Shown: in pieces, positions 3,149 to 56,299 of the stretch
How the letters are laid out: every line of letters begins with the position of its first letter
Numbering within the stretch: position 1 is the first letter of the stretch
Origin: Morchella semilibera
Taxonomy: Eukaryota > Ascomycota > Pezizomycetes > Pezizales > Morchellaceae
Assembly (NCBI GenBank): GCA_009192285.1
Contig: CM018608.1
Location: 1,506,201-1,570,200, forward strand
Direction of reading: 5' to 3'
Length of the DNA stretch: 64,000 bases
Notes under the pieces: generated by a model
What the model saw: the letters and a program-made list of their open reading frames with translations, nothing else
What the model was told of the DNA's origin: nothing
The model's database searches: none
Made by a program: the position numbers and the translations under genes

Positions 3149-4904
3149 ATGTGGAAACCAACGCAATCGTTGATGGAGACCATCACCCACTACAGCCAAT
3201 TTCCAGCAACCGGTGTGAGTTTACGGCAAATGGTACAGTTTGGGCGAAATCCTTCACCAGGTGGGTTACCCAGTCCCATACGCTATAAAAAAAAAAAAAA
3301 AAAAAAGTAGGAGTTATGCCAATGAATCTGCCGGTTGACAGGACACCGAGCAGGGACCTTATTTCGGGCTTCCCAGTTTCTCAGCGAAGAGCTGCCAATC
3401 CGATTGGCACATCGAGTAAAGGAGCTAAATCAACTGCCGGATGGTTTAAGTGATATGCCTTCCATCCGAAGAGTTGCGAATTGGTACATGCAGTCGTTTG
3501 AGGTTGGTGACTCATCTTGATTTGTTCGTTTGGTGGTGGTGGCTTGACTAACCACACCAAATATTAGGAAATCACTACCCTCCAAAAGCCAAGTTTATCA
3601 AAAGATATAAGGGATAAATTAATAAAAGGGTCGCGGGATAATGGCGTCCCACCGATTCCATTGGAGGTCATAGAAAACCCAGACATCGAGCCCGGAACAT
3701 ATAGAAGCTCGCCATGGCAGCCAACAAACGGGAATGGGAATGGTATCCGGAATGGGAGAAAACCAAGTCAAAGGTTGGTCCTGGAGTCAATGCATTGAAA
3801 TTTATCTAATATCACATTATGCAGGCGGTATTATGCAACTGTGGACGACGATGTGCGGTGGCCCCCAGAAATTGTGGACTACAATAGACGCTTTACAAAG
3901 ACGCTCCAAAACATTAAGCATCGTCATGACCCCGTTGTCACTACAATGGGTAGGGTTTCCCTCTCATTTTCATTGGGAACCTTGGGTGAAACTGACTGAT
4001 CGCGATGATCTTGCATAGCTATGGGGATTAACGAGTACAAGCGCAAGCGGCAAAGGATGCAAATCGATAACTCAATCCAATCCTTTTTAGACCGGTTTTA
4101 CATGTCCCGAATTGGTATCCGTATGCTCATTGGTCAGCACGTGGCCCTAAACTCGGCTCCTGAACAGGAAGACTACGTGGGAATCATCTGCACAAAAACA
4201 AACGTTCGTGATTTGGCTCAAGAGGCTATTGAGAATGCGAGATTCGTGTGCGAAGATTATTACGGCTTATTCGACGCCCCAAAAGTGCAGCTGGTATGCA
4301 AGCCTGATCTAAACTTTATGTATGTGCCAGGCCACTTGAGTCACATGCTTTTCGAAACTTTAAAGAACTCTCTACGAGCTGTGGTGGAAACACATGGAAG
4401 TGATTCCGAAGAGTTTCCGCCGGTAAAGTTAATTGTAGCAGAGGGTAAAGAGGTAAATACTCCTCGATTTTCAACCACCGCTCTGCCCTATTCAATTACC
4501 GTAGCTCAGACGATGTTTCATTCATGTTTATATTTCATCTTGTTGTTAACGTTGGTGTAGGATATCACTATAAAGATTTCTGATGAAGGTGGCGGGATCC
4601 CGCGGAGTGCTATTCCCTTGGTATGGACATACATGTATACCACCGTTGAATCAACGCCGCCAATCGACCCCGACTTCAATAAGAGTGACTTCAAGGCCCC
4701 TATGGCCGGATTTGGTTACGGATTACCTATATCACGGCTGTACGCTCGATACTTTGGAGGAGACCTAAAGTTGATAAGCATGGAAGGGTGAGTTATTTCT
4801 CTGGACTTTGTGGAGTTGATACTAACATTGCAATTTTCAGATATGGCACTGATGTTTATTTGCATCTAAACCGCTTGAGTAGTTCTTCGGAGCCCCTGCA
4901 ATAA
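3149..4904 (+). CDS. mitochondrial pyruvate dehydrogenase kinase family protein (PDK/BCKDK)
   Basis: Probable mitochondrial protein kinase that would phosphorylate and inactivate the E1 subunit of pyruvate (or branched-chain ketoacid) dehydrogenase. Seven exons: 3149-3260, 3354-3502, 3568-3773, 3825-3949, 4019-4452, 4561-4787 and 4841-4904, giving 438 aa, the usual size. The N-terminal helical domain has [15 protein letters not shown], then [15 protein letters not shown] and [15 protein letters not shown]. The GHKL ATP-binding fold shows the N box (E310 TLKN S), G1 box DEGGGIP (residue 350 on) and G2 box [10 protein letters not shown]. The chosen ATG has the context GCCGCCATG. An in-frame extension upstream without an ATG contains a basic stretch (HRRRC), so a spliced leader exon may be missed. 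Exon 3 adds a low-complexity GNGNGIRNG stretch. PDK versus BCKDK cannot be decided here. Confidence 0.92.
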
Positions 4905-6060: not shown

Positions 6061-7368
6061 TGTAGCTTATTCAAGTGCGAATAAGAAGGGAGAAGCGGTG
6101 AATCTTTAAAAAAAAAAAAATTTGCGAGCTGTAGATAGAAGGGTGAGATAATGTGATGTGAGTGTTTCTGAGGAGTAGGATTGTTGTGGTTGTTGTTGTG
6201 AGTATGAACTGAACAGAGAGAAAGGGAGGAAGAGTCTGTCTACATATGTACACTGTCGCGCACCGCAAACAACTCTATCACTCTACTCTCACAGAACTGA
6301 AGGGATCGTGTAGTGTACGTGCTCGAGTTCACTTCCCCCACCCCCCCCCTGCCTAGTGTGGGGAGCCCTAGCAGGAGTGACGCCCCCGAATTCAGGGTCG
6401 GCCAACCAGAGAACAGACACTGTAAACAACCTAGTAGATTATCACGAACACTACGTAGCAACATATTTCTCTAACAATTCCCTCCTACATGCTACATCTA
6501 TCTGCATTTTCACTGTATACTGAAGTAAGGAAGGATCATCGCGAATTGTAAAGCAGGGGCCAATTGATCCGCCGGTGTGGTTTGATAAAATCTTTGCAAA
6601 AGAAGGGCTTACGGTAACTTCCAGTACCTGAGCGACACATCTAAAGACAAGAACTTCTGAACTTCGCAAGCCGCAGTACCTTACATGTAGAATTTTAACC
6701 ATTTCGGTAATTATAATTTGAATACTTATTAGTAGCGCCTAAACGAATCCTAATAACTATCAGGTGATCATGTTTCGAGGGTTTCGAGGGGCGATTTTCA
6801 GTAATATTTAAAATTGCTTGGAATATTACTTGCTATTGGATTGGAATATGTATGAGCTCCTTGGTTGTGGGTAAGGAATATATCTTGATGTCAAGTACGT
6901 CACATCACAGGGCTATGGATTGGGATCGAATCAAAGGTACCGCGACAAGCGGGGGGCCCTGAAGTCTTCTCTACCCTGCTTGCTGCAGCATCATTACTCT
7001 CCTCTCTACCTATCGGTACTTCTTTGCTTCGAATAATTTTCAAACGAACCTCTCTTCGCTCATACCTGACTGAATGAACCTTTAGTTTGATAGCTTTTAC
7101 TACAACTGCCCTCTCAAGTTTGATCCTAAGGATACGAACGCGTACTTGCCCTGCTCGTTCTTCTTACTGGTGCCGCGGAGTTTTAGAAAACTACAGTACG
7201 ATTGGCCAAGGGCCCTCTACTTGTATCTGACTAACCACTGCTCGCTGGCTTCCTATATCTGCCCTCCTGTATAGGTTTGCAATCTTGCTCCCACTTTTGC
7301 GACTAAAATTTTCTTTTTACACTTTTCACATCCCTTGTCGTTCATGGCGGTCGTCAGTGCATGACGAC
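6061..7368. other. intergenic region, divergent promoters
   Basis: Upstream region shared by the 80-aa gene (left) and the NuiA-like gene (right). It contains a short A run near 6108-6120, a C run at about 6343-6350 and a TACATGTA palindrome at 6682-6689. Two minus-strand open frames (6240-6464 and 6451-6702) show no coding character. Nothing else is supported. Confidence 0.5.
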
Positions 7369-8260
7369 ATGCTGTTCTGCAAAATAACCTTTACCCCGCC
7401 GAGCGTTCTCAAGTATCCACGTGGAATTTTGGGGACGATCAGAAAACCGCTTGCTGTTCCTTTTGTCCCAAGGGCTCCTCAACTAACTCCATGGACAAGA
7501 TCCGTGGGATACAGAAACATCGGAGCGCTTTCATCTTCTAGAATAACAATGTCGTCTGATGCGGATTACGCTGCATTTTTAAAGAAGTCTCAAAAGGATT
7601 ACTCGCAATCATTCGAGGGGGATTCTGCGGTCACCACTACGAAGTCGACAGCGCAGTCGGAGGTGCATCCGGCGGTTCGAGCGCTTGGGGAGAGATTCTT
7701 TACCTCTGAAGTGGACGAGCCTTTTGAGGGAGTTTCGTTTGCGTGGGGCAAGGGAACGCTTCCTACTGAAGGTCTGTGAACCACTTCTTTTTTTTTTTTT
7801 TTTTTTTTTTCCTTATCTGCGCATTTTGTAAAAAAATTTTATCTTTATTTTTAAACCGCTTTTGGTTTGTCTCTTATTTCATTTTTTTCCTGATTCTCCG
7901 ATGATTTATTTCTGGAGACTTCTCCGGACCACCCCGTACAATCTCTTTGGTTGCGTATGTCTTTGATCTTCATGTGCCTTGATCTTCACTGACACCTGTC
8001 TCCTCCGCTGCAAACTAGACGAATTCGGGGATTTGATCGGAGTCCAGAGCGGCCGAGAGATTAAACTGCTGGAACCGAATAAGTGGGATGCTCACAGAGA
8101 ATACCAGGATGTCATTGAAGCTGTCGCCGAGGCCTCTGGCGGGGCCCTAGTTAAGGTTTATCGTGTTGAAGGTGCTGGGAGCCGAGTCGAATATTTCGTT
8201 GTTGGCGTGGACAGCGAAGGGAAAATAGTTGGCGTTAAGGTGCTTTCCATCGAATCTTGA
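7369..8260 (+). CDS. NuiA-like (nuclease A inhibitor-like) protein with possible mitochondrial leader
   Basis: Two exons, 7369-7771 and 8019-8260, separated by a GT..AG intron holding a T run. From the upstream ATG the protein is 214 aa. From the second in-frame ATG at 7549 (MSSDADYAAF) it is 154 aa. The C-terminal domain resembles the cyanobacterial nuclease inhibitor NuiA: FFTSEVDEPFEGVSFAW near its start, and VKVYRVEG..VEYFVVGVDSEGKIVGVK..SIES at its end, matching NuiA positions around SESEYPFE and VYRLGE..VYVIGE. NuiA binds sugar-nonspecific beta-beta-alpha-metal nucleases. The first 60 residues have no Asp or Glu and nine Lys/Arg, as in mitochondrial presequences. Two start codons could give a mitochondrial and a cytosolic/nuclear form. 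Family assignment is from remembered motif similarity. Many fungal NuiA-like proteins have no tested function. Confidence 0.72.
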
Positions 8261-10291: not shown

Positions 10292-12582
10292 ATGTCGGCG
10301 CGTCCGTCCCCACCACCTACGTTAACGCTGAATTCCGGTTCACAGGACTTACTAAGTCCTGCGCGACGTGCCAGTGTTGTCAGTCGAAATCTGACACCCC
10401 AAGTGCCCTCACCTACACTATCACGAAGTCAGAGTCCGTTCTACCAGGGTGACACTCCAATAGAATCCTCAGAACTATTAATTCCACCGCAAAGAAGGCC
10501 TGGTCAGTTTACCCCATACCAGGACAGTCCAACATCATCGCGGAGATCGAGTTGGAGTACAGATCACAGAGATTCTCGATATGGCCCATTTGTGTCGCCG
10601 TTCGATGATAATTCGGGAACCGCGTCTCCCGACATTGGTGATGCGCTCAACTCGCAGACTATCAGTGAGAAATACAACATAACACCATCAGCTGGTCTGC
10701 TGCTGTTCCCGGTAGATAAGGAGGATGACGATGCTCTGCATGACCCCGCAGAATTGGACGATTTGAGAGAATGCGATATTTTCACAAGGCGTGGGTTGGT
10801 GAATGTTGGAGGTCTGGGATTGATAGTGTTGGGAATTCTCGTGCTGTTCATTGGATACCCTGTCCTGTATGTGCCAATTGATCCTCACAATCAGTTGCCG
10901 GTTGCTAAGTGGTGGGTTTCATTTGTAGGACTTTTGTTAGCGATGCTGTCAGGGTTACAAAGAGTGCTTGCGAAGGGCCCCTTTGTATCGATGTTGGCCC
11001 GGTCGCGCTTCTGAAGAATGTTAGGCACAGTTTGGTCGATCCCGATACGCCAGAACACGCATTAACAAAGACGTCGGCGGATGGAAAGACATTTAAACTG
11101 GTGGTTAGTAAATTCCGATAGCTAATAAGCTATTGAGGTCCAGTTCGTGGTTGCTGAAATAAATCGTGAAATACAGTTTTCAGATGAATTCAATCAGGAT
11201 GGAAGGGCGTTTTATCCCAATGATGACCCATACTGGTGAGTGCATTTAATACACCTGTGCTTACTTTTTCGATGCTAATTGTTACACAGGGAAGGGGTTG
11301 ACATCCACTAGTAAGCAATCGAATACGAGTTTTATTTTGGTACCTTATCTCGGCTAACGGCTTTTGTTCTTTACAGTGCAGCAACCCAAGATTCGGAATG
11401 GTATGATCCTGATGCGTTGACGACAAAAGATGGTGTTCTTGAAATCGAGTTTGCTGCTTTCAGAAACCATGATTTGGACTTCAGATCAGGAATGCTCCAA
11501 AGTTGGAATAAACTATGCTTCAAGGGCGGGATTATTGAGGGTGAGATCGACCCCACATCTAATCACGGGGGTCAATGCTCTGACATTTAACCAGCAAGTA
11601 TCTCGTTGCCTGGTGCTGGAAACGTTTCTGGGTTATGGCCGGGTTTTTGGACTATGGGTAATTTGGGTCGCCCGGGGTATCTTTCAACCACCGAAGGGAT
11701 GTGGCCTTATTCATACCATGATGGATGCGATGCCGGAATTACAGCAAATCAGTCCAGTTCCGATGGTCTCAGTTTTCTCCCCGGAATGAAGCTTCCTGGC
11801 TGTACATGCAGCGGGGAGGACCACCCGAACGCAGGCAAAGCTCGGTCATCGCCTGAACTCGATATTCTTGAGGCTACAGTTTCAGTAATCGACACCGATG
11901 GAAATATCGTTGGAGCAGTATCCCAATCTGCACAAGTTGCACCTTTTGATGTTTGGTATCAGCCAGATTACGATCTGGTGGAGGTTTACAATCCTGAAAT
12001 CACGGTCATGAACTCATACCGTGGAGGATACTATCAGGAGGCTATCTCTGGATACTCAACTTTAAACAACGATTGGTACGATGGAAAACAGTACCAGACC
12101 TACGGATTTGAGTATGAACCTGGTGATGACGGAATGATTGTGTGGAATATCGGTGATGCCAAGACATGGAAGATGTTAGGCGGGGCTACAGGTCCCAACG
12201 GAAACATTGGACAAAGACCTATCCCACAGGAACCTATGACGATTATTGTAAACGTCGGTATGAGTAGCACATTTGCGTATATCAACTGGGTAGAATTGGC
12301 AAAATTACTGCCAGCAAAGATGAGGATTGATTGGTTAGTTCAGAAACATCTCAGAGCAATAAGTTTTTTTTTATTGGCAATACTAAGTGCAGAAATAGGA
12401 TTCGTGTTTGGCAAGACGAAGACTGCCAGGACTGCTCCGTTACATGCGACCCTCCAGATTATCCCACCACCAAGTACATCGAAGACCATCTTGATGCCTA
12501 TATGAACCCCAACTTGACAAACTGGGCTGCTACTGGTTATGATTGGCCCCAGAACACGTTGGTTGACGGATGCAGCGCTTGA
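10292..12582 (+). CDS. KRE6/SKN1-type beta-1,6-glucan synthesis protein (GH16 family)
   Basis: Type II membrane protein needed for cell wall beta-1,6-glucan in yeasts. Seven exons: 10292-10866, 10929-11103, 11177-11235, 11290-11310, 11377-11540, 11595-12333 and 12399-12582, giving 638 aa. Exon 4 is only 21 nt. The N-terminal 165 residues are Ser/Pro-rich and cytosolic. One membrane segment follows ([20 protein letters not shown]). The lumenal GH16-like domain begins with LVDPDTP and [14 protein letters not shown]. It carries [29 protein letters not shown], the ELDILEA motif (ExDxxE catalytic pattern), [11 protein letters not shown] and a C-terminal IDWIRVWQD..TCDPP segment. All match the family in order, and the length is within its range. 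Intron 1 (GTATGT..GCTAAG..TTGTAG) restores the frame at GYPVL|TFV. Confidence 0.95.
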
Positions 12583-35111: not shown

Positions 35112-38100
35112 ATGGCAGGCGAGAATGGCGGCTCCGGCGCTTCCAGGGGTGGGAATGCCGATGAGGTCGGACGAGGAGCCGATTTGGTGAGTAGTCTAGA
35201 GCAGACTAGAGGCTACCAGATGGAAATGTTTCATGAGAGCTTGAGAAGGAATATCATTGTGGCGGTATGGCGAAAAGAAAATCTTCTTTTTATCTTGGGT
35301 TCTAACATGGTGTAGATGGATACCGGATCTGGAAAAACGCATATGTAACTAACAGAATTGTTTCCTTTCAACATTCCCGCAATACTATGGAACCTTTGAC
35401 CTCTATACGCAAATTGGATACAAGAACTATTTTTGACTTAATTGCTTTCTTATAGCGCTGTGCTTCGAATTAAGGCGGAGTTGGAGAAAGGGAATGGCAA
35501 GGTATGTCAACATAGCCCTATCAAGCCTGAAATGGTTATTGATATAATTAGCTGTGCTGGTTTTTGGTACCAAACGTCGCGCTTGGAACACAGCAATATG
35601 ATGTTCTGAAAAGTTCATTACCACCTGTAAAAATAGAATTTTTGAGTGGAAACGACAAAGTAGAAAAATGGAGCGATAAAGATATTTGGGATGGCGTGCT
35701 AGGGGTAAATACTGGCCAAAGTTCAGTGATAGTCAGTACTCATCAGGTACGTACCATCAAGATATCCTTGACAAAGAAAAAGAATGTTACCTTTACTAGA
35801 TAAGAAGTAATAGGGGTCCGGGTACTGATAGTTAACGGGTAGGTACTGCTGGATGCCCTGAGCCATGGTTTCGTGAACCTCGAAAATATCGGGTTGCTAA
35901 TTTTTGACGAAGGTTTGTGGCTCAAATATCGTTAAATCGGCTTCAAAAGAAGATTCACTTCTAGAAGGAATTTTATAAAATATGGGAGTATGATATCTAG
36001 TTCCTTAGAGTTAGCTAATAGATATCCCTTTTCATAGCACATCATTGCGTTGGCTCTCATCCAGCAAACCGGATTATGGTAGATCACTACCATCCTAAGC
36101 GTGGTAAATCATCAAATATCCCCGCTATCCTTGGACTTACGGCAAGCCCTGTAGTGAGAGCAAAGCCTGATCAGCTTCGGTATATTTCATTAAGCTAGGT
36201 TATATTAAATTCTTTAAATGCTGAATTATCTTCACAGGTTGATTGAAACAAACCTGAACGCTATTGCTCGGACGCCTATAATGAATCGGATCGAACTTCT
36301 CAAACATGTTTACCCGCCATTACTCAAAAGAGTTATATACAGCTCTTCACACTGTGAATCCTCTACACCAGCTAGAGAGGATATTTCACCGCCCAGCATA
36401 GAAAAGATCCTGGATATTGATTCGGACTTCTCTAATGGGAGCGCAAATGATGCTTTGAATATAAAAGATCTAGAAAAGGCCATAATTAACATAGAGGAAG
36501 GTTCTGATCATGACAGCTGTAGTGGAGGAAGCGTTTACTACTCTGATGAGGATACACACGGGACCGACGACTCATCAGACAGAGCTGAGGCCGAAATACC
36601 AGAGGGTGAATTTGAGAGCATAGATCCAAGGACAGGCGAGCCTTTTGTGAAGGGGCAGGAACAGGAGCAGGAGCAGGAGTTTGAGATCATAGATCCAAGG
36701 ACAGGGGAAGTCCTTGTACCGGGAAGGCCACCATCACCAGACGCCGTTTCTGTTAAATCAGATAGCTACGAGGTGATTGACCCTAGGACCGGGGAGACTT
36801 ACAGGCCCTCTTCTCGGCGCGAGTCACGTTCACGTTCAAGGTCGTCAACGCCACTTATCATACCAAGAAGCCCGCGCCGGCCGCCAGTGTCATTCTCAAA
36901 TTCTATACCGACAATGAGTTTTCAGGGAACTTTGGCGTTCGAGTCTCTCAAAAGTGCTTATATGAAGATGGATATTGAGGTGGATCCGTATATTGTTTCT
37001 CTGCGTCAATCCCCTAACCCCGATGAGCGCAGGATCCAAAGATTGATATCAGGCAGGGGGACATATTGCCAAACCCAAATGAAGGGGCTAGTTACCAAAT
37101 CATGTCATATCCGGAAAGAGTACGGGGTATGGGCCTCCGAATGGTACATCAAGGAAGCATTATCAAGGATGCTTAGAGGTGCCGACGACGCAGAAGGGGA
37201 GGGGGCATTGATGGATTGGGATGGCGATCGCGACGAAAAGACATACCTAAAATCAATTCTAAGAAATGTCACAGTGCCCACGGACGTGGGACCTGTCGAG
37301 GGAAGGCTCACTAATAAAATGGAGAAATTGATCCAGGTCCTATTGGAGGAGTATCACAACGAGGAAGACGGGGAGGCATTTGCAGGACTTGTATTTGTTG
37401 AGCAACGAGTTGAAGTAAGACTTATGCAGCAGATTCTCGAGACGCACAATAGCACAAAAGACCTCTTCCGGTGCGGTACAATAGTTGGTGGGGCGCAGCA
37501 TTCGGCAAGAGCAGGAAGGGGGGTTTATGAACTAGTTTCTCCAAAGGATCAGGTTGGAGTTATTGAGTCGTTTAGGGCAGGAAAAGTGAATTTATTAATA
37601 TCTACCAGTGTAGTGGAGGAAGGACTCGATATTCCAGCTTGCCATCTCGTTGTATGCTTCTCGCTGCCGCAGAACCTCAAGAGCTTTATACAACGCCGAG
37701 GACGTGCTCGAAGGGCTAAGAGTACCTATGTTTTGATGTTCGAAGAGGGGGATAAGGATGGGAGCGTGGAGTATTTCGAGAAGCGAGAAAGAGAGATGAT
37801 AGAAGAGTATTTGGACGAGACCAGACAGTTGACTCGGGCGGCAGTACGTGAGGAGGATCCCGAGGAAGACGATAATAAAGGCATCTGGGGTTTGGGCGCA
37901 AAGCGAAAGTTTATAATTGAGCGTACTGGGTATTTTTCTTTCTTTCCTCCTTCCTTTCCTTCTACATTTCTTTCCGAGGGACACGCAATCCCGTTAGCTA
38001 TCACCTCCCCCTGCCCCCGTCTCTTAGTATCAGCACGCAACAAAAATAATTATCTATCATTGCCCCCCCATACTAATCATTACAATTAATTGTTTTAAGC

Positions 38101-40681
38101 CCAGGTACTAATAATAGTCATTAGGGCATCTTTAAACTTGGAATCGGCAGTTCAACATTTATATCATTTCTGTGACTGTTTACCACAAGGGCAATACATG
38201 AACATTAATCCAGTATTTACTTGCGAAATAGATCCCGACCCCCGCAGTGAGGATGGAACCAGAACCTCAACTCAACTCTTTAGGGCCAAGGTCCTACTCC
38301 CAAATTGCATCCCTCCTAAGGCACGACATGCAAAGAGCAAGCTATCATGGCCTACCGAAAAAATGGCAAAGCGGGATGCTGCGCTCGAAGCATACATTGG
38401 CCTGTATCGTCTCAAGCTTGTTGACGATCATCTGATGCCCTTATTACGAACGGATGCAGACATTGATGCCATGAAGGATGTCGAAAAGAGGCCTTCCAAG
38501 GTTCCTGTTGAGAGTACCATGAACCCATGGGCTGATATGAAGTGGGATGATGATACCGTTGTTTACTCGACGAAAATCAGTTTGCGCATGCCGAAGTCAG
38601 ATAGAGATGTAGAAATCAATATGCTGACGCCCGTCGAGTGCCCTCCTGTGGCTGACATTCAGGTCTTCTGGACTAATGATGAGATCGGAAAGGTAACGGT
38701 TGGGAACACGATCTGTTTGGGGGTAAACCCGGAAATTGTGGAGTGGGGTAGACAACAGACTTTTGAGCTGCTCTTCAATATCTTTGGAAGTAGGATGAAG
38801 ATGGGAGTCATGGAGTTCCCATATTTGTTTGTCCCTCTCCAGCCAGGTGAATGGGACTGCTCCAACCTTGGACGCATTACGAATGCATTGGACGCCTACA
38901 ATGAGCTTGGACCATCCTGCGATATTGTGATCAACGACGCCATGCAGAGTAGTTTACGCCTTGTCGTCAAAAAATGGCGAACAGACTTATCGCCCCTAGA
39001 TGTACCTGCACTCGTTGAAAGATATGGCAGAAAGCACATTATAAAGGATCAACCGGTCATTGAAGCTGTCAGAATCACACGCCGCCGAGACTTTCTCCAT
39101 GAAGAGGCAAACCAATCCAACTCTGAATCTACGATACTCCTACTTCCGCAGTATTGCACCCTTGAGAGAATTCCATGGCGGTTTTTTCAGTTGGGGCTAT
39201 TTATTCCCGGCATCATCCGCCGGGTTGAGGTGCATCTTATCGCAGCGGACCTACAGGCGACACTCCTAGCCCCAGTTGGCATCAATGATCTATCTCTCAT
39301 TGTCACCTCAATATGCGCATCTGCTGCTCGAGAGGCGGTAGACTACCAAAGATTTGAGTTCCTTGGCGATTCTGTTCTTAAATTCCTCACTAGTGTCAAC
39401 CTTGTCGATGAGCACCCGCTATGGCATGAAGGCTACCTCGCCCGGAAAAAGGACCAGCTAGTTTCAAACGCCCGACTAGCCAAAGCAGCACAAGACAAGC
39501 GACTATCGAGATGGATCATCACTTCTATCTTCACGGGAATAAAATGGGCACCACACTATATGCAGGGTCACGAACCACCCAAAGACGCCGACGAGGTTGA
39601 ACCCCCGAGCGGGAAGAACGAGTTATCAACCAAGATCCTCGCTGACGTCGTCGAGTCCCTCATTGGTGCATCTTACCTCGAAGGGGGTTATGGAAAGGCG
39701 CTGAAGTGCATAAACCTCTTTGTGCCTGAAAACGAACTTAAACCCCTTCCTCTGCGCATCAACTCGATGGTCTCTCGCGCTGCCATGCTCCAACCCAGCA
39801 CCTCGAAACTCGGGGATCTTGAAAAGCTCCTAGGCTACACTTTCCGCCACAAAGCACTCCTCGTTGAGGCCATCACACACCCCTCCTTCACCTCCGATAT
39901 GAGCTCCATCTCCTACCAACGACTCGAGTTCCTTGGTGATGCCCTTCTCGACATGCTTGTGGTACCATGGCTTTTTCATCACGAGAAGACGCTCTCTCAC
40001 ATTAATATGCATCTGTTTAAGGCCTCTGTCGTTAATGCCGACTTCCTTGCCTTCCTCTCCCTTGGCTACTCTGCCAATGTCGGTGACGCAACTGTCGAGT
40101 CTAGCCGCCGTGGCCGCCGCCCAGAAACCTTCAAGCTTGTGCCAAAAGACCGCAAAATCCAGCTATGGAAGTTTGTCCGTCACCAGCATCCCGAAATGGC
40201 GTCCGCACAAACTAGGGTCTGGCACCAATATGACGCAGAGGGGTTCCGAGATATCATCCAGAAAGCCCTCAATAAGAGCGACAACTATCCATGGACGGCG
40301 CTGTGCGGGCTTGATGCGGATAAGTTCTTCTCTGATATTGTTGAGGCACTTCTTGGCGCAATCTTCGTAGACTCGGGCGGGGATTTTGGGCCAGTGACAG
40401 AGTTCGCAGAACGGCTAGGAATATTGAGGACTCTGCGCAGGCTAGTGCGGGATAATGTCGATGTTACTCATCCGATCAAGAAGCTTGGTGAGCTTGTGGC
40501 GGCAGATGGGCAGGGGACAGTCACGTATCTACCCGGCCTGGTGAGAGGGAAGCATACGTGCACGGTCCAGATTAATCAAAAGGTGTTGGTGAAGATTGAT
40601 GACGGGAGTAGTAGGGCGGTGGCGAGGGTGAGGGCAGCAGAGGCAGGATACCATACTTTATTGTGGGTGTTTTCTTTCTAG
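35112..40681 (+). CDS. Dicer-like protein (DCL2-type) with an unusual helicase insertion
   Basis: Cuts double-stranded RNA into small RNAs for RNA silencing. Eight exons: 35112-35264, 35316-35344, 35456-35501, 35552-35746, 35843-35912, 36038-36179, 36238-37929 and 38125-40681, giving 1627 aa. Helicase: Walker A DTGSGKT (53-59), DEAHH (163-167), GLTASPV, then a Ser/acidic insertion holding three IDPRTGE repeats (residues 340, 363, 392). The helicase C half has STSVVEEGLDIP and QRRGRARR (about 697). The Dicer dimerisation domain follows (SAVQHLYHFC). RNase III-a is at YQRFEFLGDSVLKF (about 1183) with ADVVESLIGA; RNase III-b is at YQRLEFLGDALLD (about 1373) with DIVEALLGA. A dsRBD-like end closes it (VQINQKVLVKIDDGSS). 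Acidic catalytic residues of both RNase III domains are present, so it looks active. Intron 7 is long (195 nt). No PAZ signature is evident. Confidence 0.94.
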
Positions 40682-56000: not shown

Positions 56001-56146
56001 ATGTGAAGTAGGTTGAAAAAATTAAGATGACATTTCGAACTTTATGGTTTTTAAAATCAAGAAACACAAGTACAGTAGATGGCTGTTTCAATACGAAACC
56101 TCTGGCTATGGTCTCCAGAGTCCCGTCTTTTGGGGTAAATAATACA
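53062..56146. other. intergenic region
   Basis: 3.1 kb with no supported gene. It contains a T-rich 3' flank after the Stc1-domain gene, a (CA)n run at about 54107-54122, and short open frames on both strands that lack coding features. Confidence 0.5.
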
Positions 56147-56229
56147 GCTCGATTAGTGTAGAGGTTATCACTCCGGATTTTGATGAAAAGAAATTTCCGG
56201 CAACTCCGGTTCGAATCCGGGATTGAGCT
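56147..56229 (+). tRNA. tRNA-Gln (anticodon TTG) with an 11-nt intron
   Basis: The acceptor stem GCTCGAT pairs with ATTGAGC (one G-T pair). The D arm is TAGTGTAGAGGTTATCAC. The anticodon stem CCGGA/TCCGG encloses the loop TTTTGAT with anticodon TTG at 56180-56182. The T arm TCCGG-TTCGAAT-CCGGG has a standard T loop, and the discriminator is T at 56229. The intron TGAAAAGAAAT (56184-56194) lies one base 3' of the anticodon, the normal eukaryotic position. Confidence 0.92.
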
Positions 56230-56299
56230 ATCCGTTGACTTTTTATACTTTTTTACTTAGGTGGGCTTGGTCAGATGCCCACCCACATAGTATGGTGTG

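Follow-up and report, generated by a model that had tools for sequence, protein, structure and literature searches.

The gene at positions 7369 to 8260 of the window (the whole 64,000-nucleotide stretch of DNA analyzed here) encodes a protein of the NuiA nuclease-inhibitor family in which two key contact residues are kept, and one EndoG was found in the same genome. Its standing as a NuiA relative is well supported by sequence comparison, and that it inhibits Nuc1, the EndoG-type nuclease of the same fungus, is reasonably supported; a further proposal, that two start codons yield one mitochondrial and one non-mitochondrial form, is a fair hypothesis, in which the extension is the doubtful part and the whole scheme more doubtful still. 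The available passages of the literature cited here say nothing on how fungi protect their own DNA from EndoG/Nuc1; a NuiA-type candidate that retains the metal-contact glutamate would link this mitochondrial cell-death nuclease with a nuclease/inhibitor pair of bacteria.

The source genome comprises 56.8 Mb in 23 contigs, and the window, inhibitor gene included, sits on contig C6 (features in Table 1). An earlier sequence-only reading of this DNA had described an in-frame ATG 60 codons upstream of the conserved start, with no stop, no Asp or Glu, and nine Lys or Arg residues in between, all of which is confirmed from the sequence. The second ATG, at residue 61, had been taken as the conserved start, and this is borne out indirectly, as the Pfam NuiA_2 match begins at residue 62. 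The frame from the first ATG is stop-free as far as 7779 and stays open upstream to 7231, with no further ATG; the base at -3 is G for this start, and A for the second. Another ATG, out of frame and with T at -3, lies within the extension at 7491. Removal of the intron, which has a branch-like CTGAC at 7989, gives a product of 214 amino acids. Four open splices are possible at the gene; the product of this one, which is the one covered by the Pfam scan, aligns with NuiA_2 over the full profile (1-154), and the other three drop residues from the NuiA_2 region.

Table 1. Features of the candidate inhibitor gene and its leader (window coordinates).
Feature	Position	Strand	Remarks
Upstream short reading frame, 6 codons	7344..7364	+	T at -3
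Upstream short reading frame, 8 codons, overlapping the 7369 start out of frame	7361..7387	+	T at -3
Acid-free N-terminal extension, residues 1-60	7369..7548	+	Candidate mitochondrial targeting sequence or untranslated leader
Possible leader intron end: branch-site-like CTAAC (7483), acceptor-like TTTCATCTTCTAG (to 7541)	7483..7541	+	Donor-like GTCAGT at 7353; rival to a translated extension
Second in-frame ATG and first part of NuiA_2, residue 61 onward	7549..7771	+	A at -3
Intron, 247 bases, with a poly-T run	7772..8018	+	GTCTGT...CTAG ends
Exon 2: remainder of the NuiA_2 domain and stop TGA	8019..8260	+	Coding 8019-8257, TGA 8258-8260

Residues 62-212 match Pfam NuiA_2 (PF23151) over positions 1-154 of 154, at 139.5 bits against a cut-off of 27, whereas Pfam NuiA (PF07924) gives 17 bits, below its cut-off of 22.1, and covers only residues 178-213. 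The NuiA_2 result carries no recorded function. Genome-wide family searches found one NuiA_2 gene in the source genome, with PF23151 picking up both exons, and no match to PF07924. Close relatives were found neither by pattern scan of viral contigs and bacterial and archaeal genomes nor by tblastn of plasmids. PDB sequence matches of the protein and of its last 38 residues were judged to be chance, as was an NCBIfam RnfG match (E 0.043, far below cut-off).

The homology of NuiA_2 and classical NuiA is taken here as settled on profile evidence, because the alignment score between them exceeds that of every control and because NuiA genes match both models. PF07924 is present in 6 of 8 hand-chosen cyanobacterial genomes and in 24 of 292 genomes drawn from Cyanobacteria; PF23151 matches 4 of these 292, one above its cut-off. 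Three of the four PF23151 places (in G076, G098, and G236) overlap PF07924 NuiA genes, and the fourth contains five stop codons. Two of these cyanobacterial proteins, scoring 161.1 and 177.1 bits with the Pfam NuiA model, give 24.1 and 24.9 bits with NuiA_2 (cut-off 27) and align with it over most of the profile. For direct comparison, a set of 22 NuiA ORFs of at most 165 residues was taken from 24 of the 43 loci L106-L148 (L106-L112 and L122-L138), leaving out L135 and L136 as long frames and including L137, which is cut short, and L138, which is diverged. With hhalign, these 22 relatives align with the fungal core at a score of 39.2 (probability 85.7), against at most 20.5 for 200 shuffles, 7.7 for the reversed protein, and at most 17.1 for 54 pieces of ORFs from the window; a smaller profile of 8 NuiA sequences is weak (hhalign probability 12.8 local and 7.9 global; HMMER 5.5 bits). 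Identity of the fungal protein to five NuiA relatives is 20-24%.

The cyanobacterial loci show some variety of their own. L114 (1461-2352) and L118 (1470-2358) are single frames of about 295 residues in which NuiA is matched twice, and are read as tandem two-domain NuiA-like proteins. The diverged NuiA-like protein of L138 (reverse frame, 162 amino acids) has an N-terminus resembling, by eye, a signal peptide or lipoprotein start, suggesting an exported inhibitor; in L136, the NuiA-like match lies in a 678-residue frame whose start resembles pentapeptide repeats by eye.

At least 90% of the 22 NuiA sequences agree at each of 19 columns; at 9 of these the fungal protein is identical (S113, E114, P118, F119, W126, W157, V181, G197, G206) and at 10 it differs, the column of NuiA T135 being one of the ten. 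In the numbering of PDB 2o3b_B, the columns kept include NuiA S23, E24, P28, F29, and W76, with E114 corresponding to E24 and W157 to W76; this numbering can be used for E24, W76, and T135 because the NuiA of L124 is nearly identical to that of 2o3b_B. The C-terminal S214 occupies the position of T135, so that the two chains end at the same place, with Ser for Thr. The placements of E114, W157, and S214 agree between MAFFT by two routes and alignment A1. Within the complex, NuiA meets NucA through W76 and T135, and its E24 extends to the magnesium of the nuclease; the title of the NucA/NuiA structure paper reportedly speaks of a “novel metal ion bridge.” The fungal protein lacks about ten of the NuiA residues that precede W76 and six of those that follow it, so the interface is not copied whole. 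NuiA is described as a competitive inhibitor whose site overlaps that of DNA (PMC5758888). A hydrogen bond is given in PMC5374557 as joining D121 of NuiA to E24 of NucA; we believe that the protein labels are swapped there, since the NuiA sequence has Glu at 24 and a residue other than Asp at 121.

Beyond these positions, the fungal protein shares with Anabaena NuiA (PF07924; PDB 2o3b_B, 1j57, 1ktu) a homologous domain and two glycines near the C-terminus; unlike it, it begins its core with some 30 additional residues, possibly has a basic extension, scores below the PF07924 cut-off, and comes from a gene with an intron and without a linked nuclease gene. From its sequence it is almost certainly a NuiA homologue, and the earlier description of it as NuiA-like gains strength from conservation at E24 and W76 and from a chain that ends where NuiA does. 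The likeness to Pfam NuiA_2 is a full-length one, with the 60-residue extension outside the model.

A matching nuclease had been expected in the same genome, and one was found: a six-frame family search, a method that can miss an intron-split nuclease, gave a single PF01223 (Endonuclease_NS) gene, EndoG-like, and no match to PF13930. In a spliced reading whose splice sites are one choice among several, this Nuc1 has 325 residues, includes DRGH, and matches PF01223 at 232.6 bits. Its best PDB match (2.9e-66) is 3ism_A, molecule CG8862, which we take to be Drosophila EndoG from the EndoG/EndoGI complex; the next chains are named endonuclease G, and it also matches 2o3b_A, the nuclease chain of the NucA/NuiA complex (7.5e-14). 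We read its N-terminus as hydrophobic, as expected of a membrane-held mitochondrial form. It is a candidate target for an inhibitor of beta-beta-alpha-metal nucleases, the class that includes NucA. The nuclease gene lies on contig C14 and is thus unlinked to the inhibitor gene. In the cyanobacteria, 15 of 24 NuiA loci examined have a D[KR]GH reading frame with a loose second motif within 1.5 kb flanks, a plain motif count made with neither a chance control nor a family scan. Since the NuiA of Anabaena acts selectively on NucA, homology alone does not imply that Nuc1 is the target.

The preferred reading is that the gene encodes a eukaryotic NuiA-type inhibitor targeting the fungus's own EndoG-type Nuc1, a proposal for which the balance of probability seems about level; the narrower proposition, that the NuiA_2 protein inhibits Nuc1, is slightly favored. 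The inhibitor would cover the Nuc1 active site and so hold the enzyme inactive, with E114 reaching the catalytic magnesium and W157 and the C-terminal S214 in support. A short form made from the ATG at 7549 would be present in the cytosol and nucleus, acting against Nuc1 outside or not yet inside mitochondria. Less certainly, some ribosomes would begin at 7369, and the basic, acid-free extension would take a minor share of the protein to mitochondria. The two forms would then restrain the single EndoG/Nuc1 on both sides of the mitochondrial membranes, with Nuc1 cutting only once the inhibitor is removed; as a complete scheme this is distinctly unlikely. If true, the arrangement would be the eukaryotic parallel to the nuclease/inhibitor pair of bacteria, with its two genes at separate loci, and would act as a safety catch on mtDNA turnover and cell death in fungi.

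The extension, from M1 to T60, has no Asp or Glu, 6 Arg, 3 Lys, and eight Pro. In 264 kb of the source genome, 158 of 4351 ATGs outside ORFs of at least 110 codons are open for 60 codons; 9 of these open frames lack Asp and Glu, and 3 also have at least nine Lys or Arg. Among 40000 dinucleotide shuffles of the stretch, 3597 were open and 26 of these lacked acidic residues; a first set of 5000 gave 437 open and none acid-free. The source genome is therefore a milder judge than the shuffles (9/158 vs. 26/3597 of open frames). GAN codons number 0, 7, and 4 in the three forward frames of the extension, the frame with none being that of the ATG at 7369. Local composition may explain part of the acid-free effect: in this frame, the 46 codons that precede 7369, which are presumably not translated, include only 2 for Asp or Glu. 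The open, acid-free stretch is unusual, yet it was picked by scanning the whole window for oddities.

The codon score of the extension, -0.107, stands at percentile 1.7 among 236 coding windows and is typical of 1357 open noncoding windows; in-frame scores are 0.235 for core exon 1 and 0.148 for exon 2. When synonymous codons are scored, frame 0 ranks first among the six; when all codons are scored, a reverse frame comes out slightly ahead. Both scores fall in the noncoding range. The eight prolines allow only short proline-free runs before residue 42, and the best helical moment is matched by 20-32% of composition shuffles, so that amphipathicity is ordinary. A start-context model, rough and noisy (it derives from 39 presumed starts, in which A, C, and G are equally common at -3), scores 7369 at 1.34 and 7549 at 0.65.

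Precedents for the arrangement come from other fungi. A common design for dual localization is described in Cryptococcus in which a leaky upstream AUG comes first, followed by a mitochondrial targeting sequence and then by a strong AUG in the same frame, and this design is predicted in Neurospora crassa (PMC7049704); Bol3 of Aspergillus fumigatus has two starts and two locations (PMC11285713). The gene described here shares the layout, with an upstream in-frame AUG at 7369, a proposed targeting stretch, and an AUG at the conserved start (7549, with NuiA_2 from residue 62); it is known from its sequence, whereas the Bol3 and Cryptococcus cases are reported with proteomic, imaging, or ribosome-profiling support. 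PMC5915074 gives the location of EndoG as the intermembrane space or, in bound form, the inner membrane, which makes an inhibitor in the matrix harder to understand; relocation of EndoG to the matrix after fertilization is cited in PMC7016115, which also found that deleting NUC1 in Cryptococcus did not significantly affect the inheritance of mtDNA. For human EndoG, PMC13086865 argues that control may be unneeded inside mitochondria, which speaks against the need for a mitochondrial form. The earlier suggestion of two starts with a mitochondrial product may hold, and fungi are known to have genes of this kind; against it, the extension is proline-rich and not coding-like in codon use. That the extension is translated and serves in targeting seems possible but doubtful.

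Several other explanations need to be weighed, and since they overlap with one another and with the preferred reading, their probabilities do not sum to one. The inhibitor may be made in the short form only, cytosolic and nuclear, with transcription starting past 7369 or with that ATG skipped, and with 7369-7548 a leader open by chance. The noncoding-like codon score set against those of the core exons, the start of the NuiA_2 match just past residue 61, and the acid-poor frame upstream of 7369 all point this way, as do the upstream frames at 7344 and 7361, the latter overlapping the 7369 start, which would capture some scanning ribosomes. Frames both open and acid-free are nevertheless rare by chance (26/40000 shuffles, 9/4351 noncoding ATGs), and targeting sequences, naturally without acidic codons, would score lower in codon use even if translated; this explanation falls a little short of an even chance. 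A related one is that the leader has an intron with its end at 7541, seven bases short of the ATG at 7549, which is spliced from some or all transcripts, giving the long form when retained and the short form when removed. The acceptor-like and CTAAC sequences listed in Table 1 would mark its end, and the donor-like GTCAGT, which shares the form GTCNGT with the gene's own donor GTCTGT, would define a 189-base intron removing the ATGs at both 7361 and 7369; further candidate donors are GTACGT at 6895 and a weaker GTATCC at 7413. The CTAAC stands, however, about 54 bases short of the acceptor, a far longer distance than the roughly 25 bases seen in the gene's own intron, and the best consensus donor, GTACGT, implies an intron of about 650 bases, so that this arrangement is given a small probability.

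At the other extreme, the protein may be mitochondrial only, made from 7369 and guarding mtDNA in the matrix. The ATG at 7369 is the first in frame, has G at -3, and outscores 7549 in the rough start model, but that model is a poor one, and an inhibitor in the matrix might miss EndoG of the intermembrane space or inner membrane (PMC5915074), though relocation to the matrix after fertilization has been described (PMC7016115); we consider this very unlikely. A different kind of alternative is that the protein retains the NuiA fold to serve another partner, Nuc1 not being the target. The low identity to the five NuiA relatives, the gaps near W76, and the unlinked inhibitor and nuclease genes speak for a changed partner, which is unlikely but a serious contender: conservation at the E24 and W76 positions is not expected of another role, and Nuc1 is the sole Endonuclease_NS gene found in the source genome.

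As to the novelty of inhibition of Nuc1 by a NuiA-type protein, no fungal NuiA-type inhibitor, and no fungal inhibitor of EndoG/Nuc1, was found in the literature searched, which includes few subscription papers. Drosophila has a protein inhibitor of EndoG, EndoGI (CG4930), domain 1 of which is reported to resemble the C-terminal domain of Ku80 most closely in structure (PMC13086865). The parallel with the proposed fungal pair is that of a protein inhibitor acting on an EndoG, with the best PDB match of the fungal Nuc1 being 3ism_A; the difference is that the Ku80-like domain 1 is not presented as NuiA-like in the available passages of PMC13086865. The remark in the sequence-only reading that such a pairing had not been seen described thus holds for fungi within the literature searched and must be qualified by the Drosophila case. 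The inhibitor/Nuc1 pairing would be new but its logic would not, because fungi have a described class of dual-localized proteins with two AUGs and Drosophila has a known inhibitor of EndoG.

A few other features of the window may be recorded, all on the + strand. A tRNA call by ARAGORN at 56146-56230, with an undefined two-base anticodon, was made with bacterial settings and may be spurious. The neighbors of the inhibitor gene are a piece at 4009-4560 that matches PF10436, mitochondrial branched-chain ketoacid dehydrogenase kinase, and, at 11591-12505, a glucan protein of KRE6/SKN1 type (PF03935); genes such as the latter point to a fungal source. Long frames at 36218-40681 appear helicase- and RNase III-like by eye, and are a candidate Dicer-like gene.
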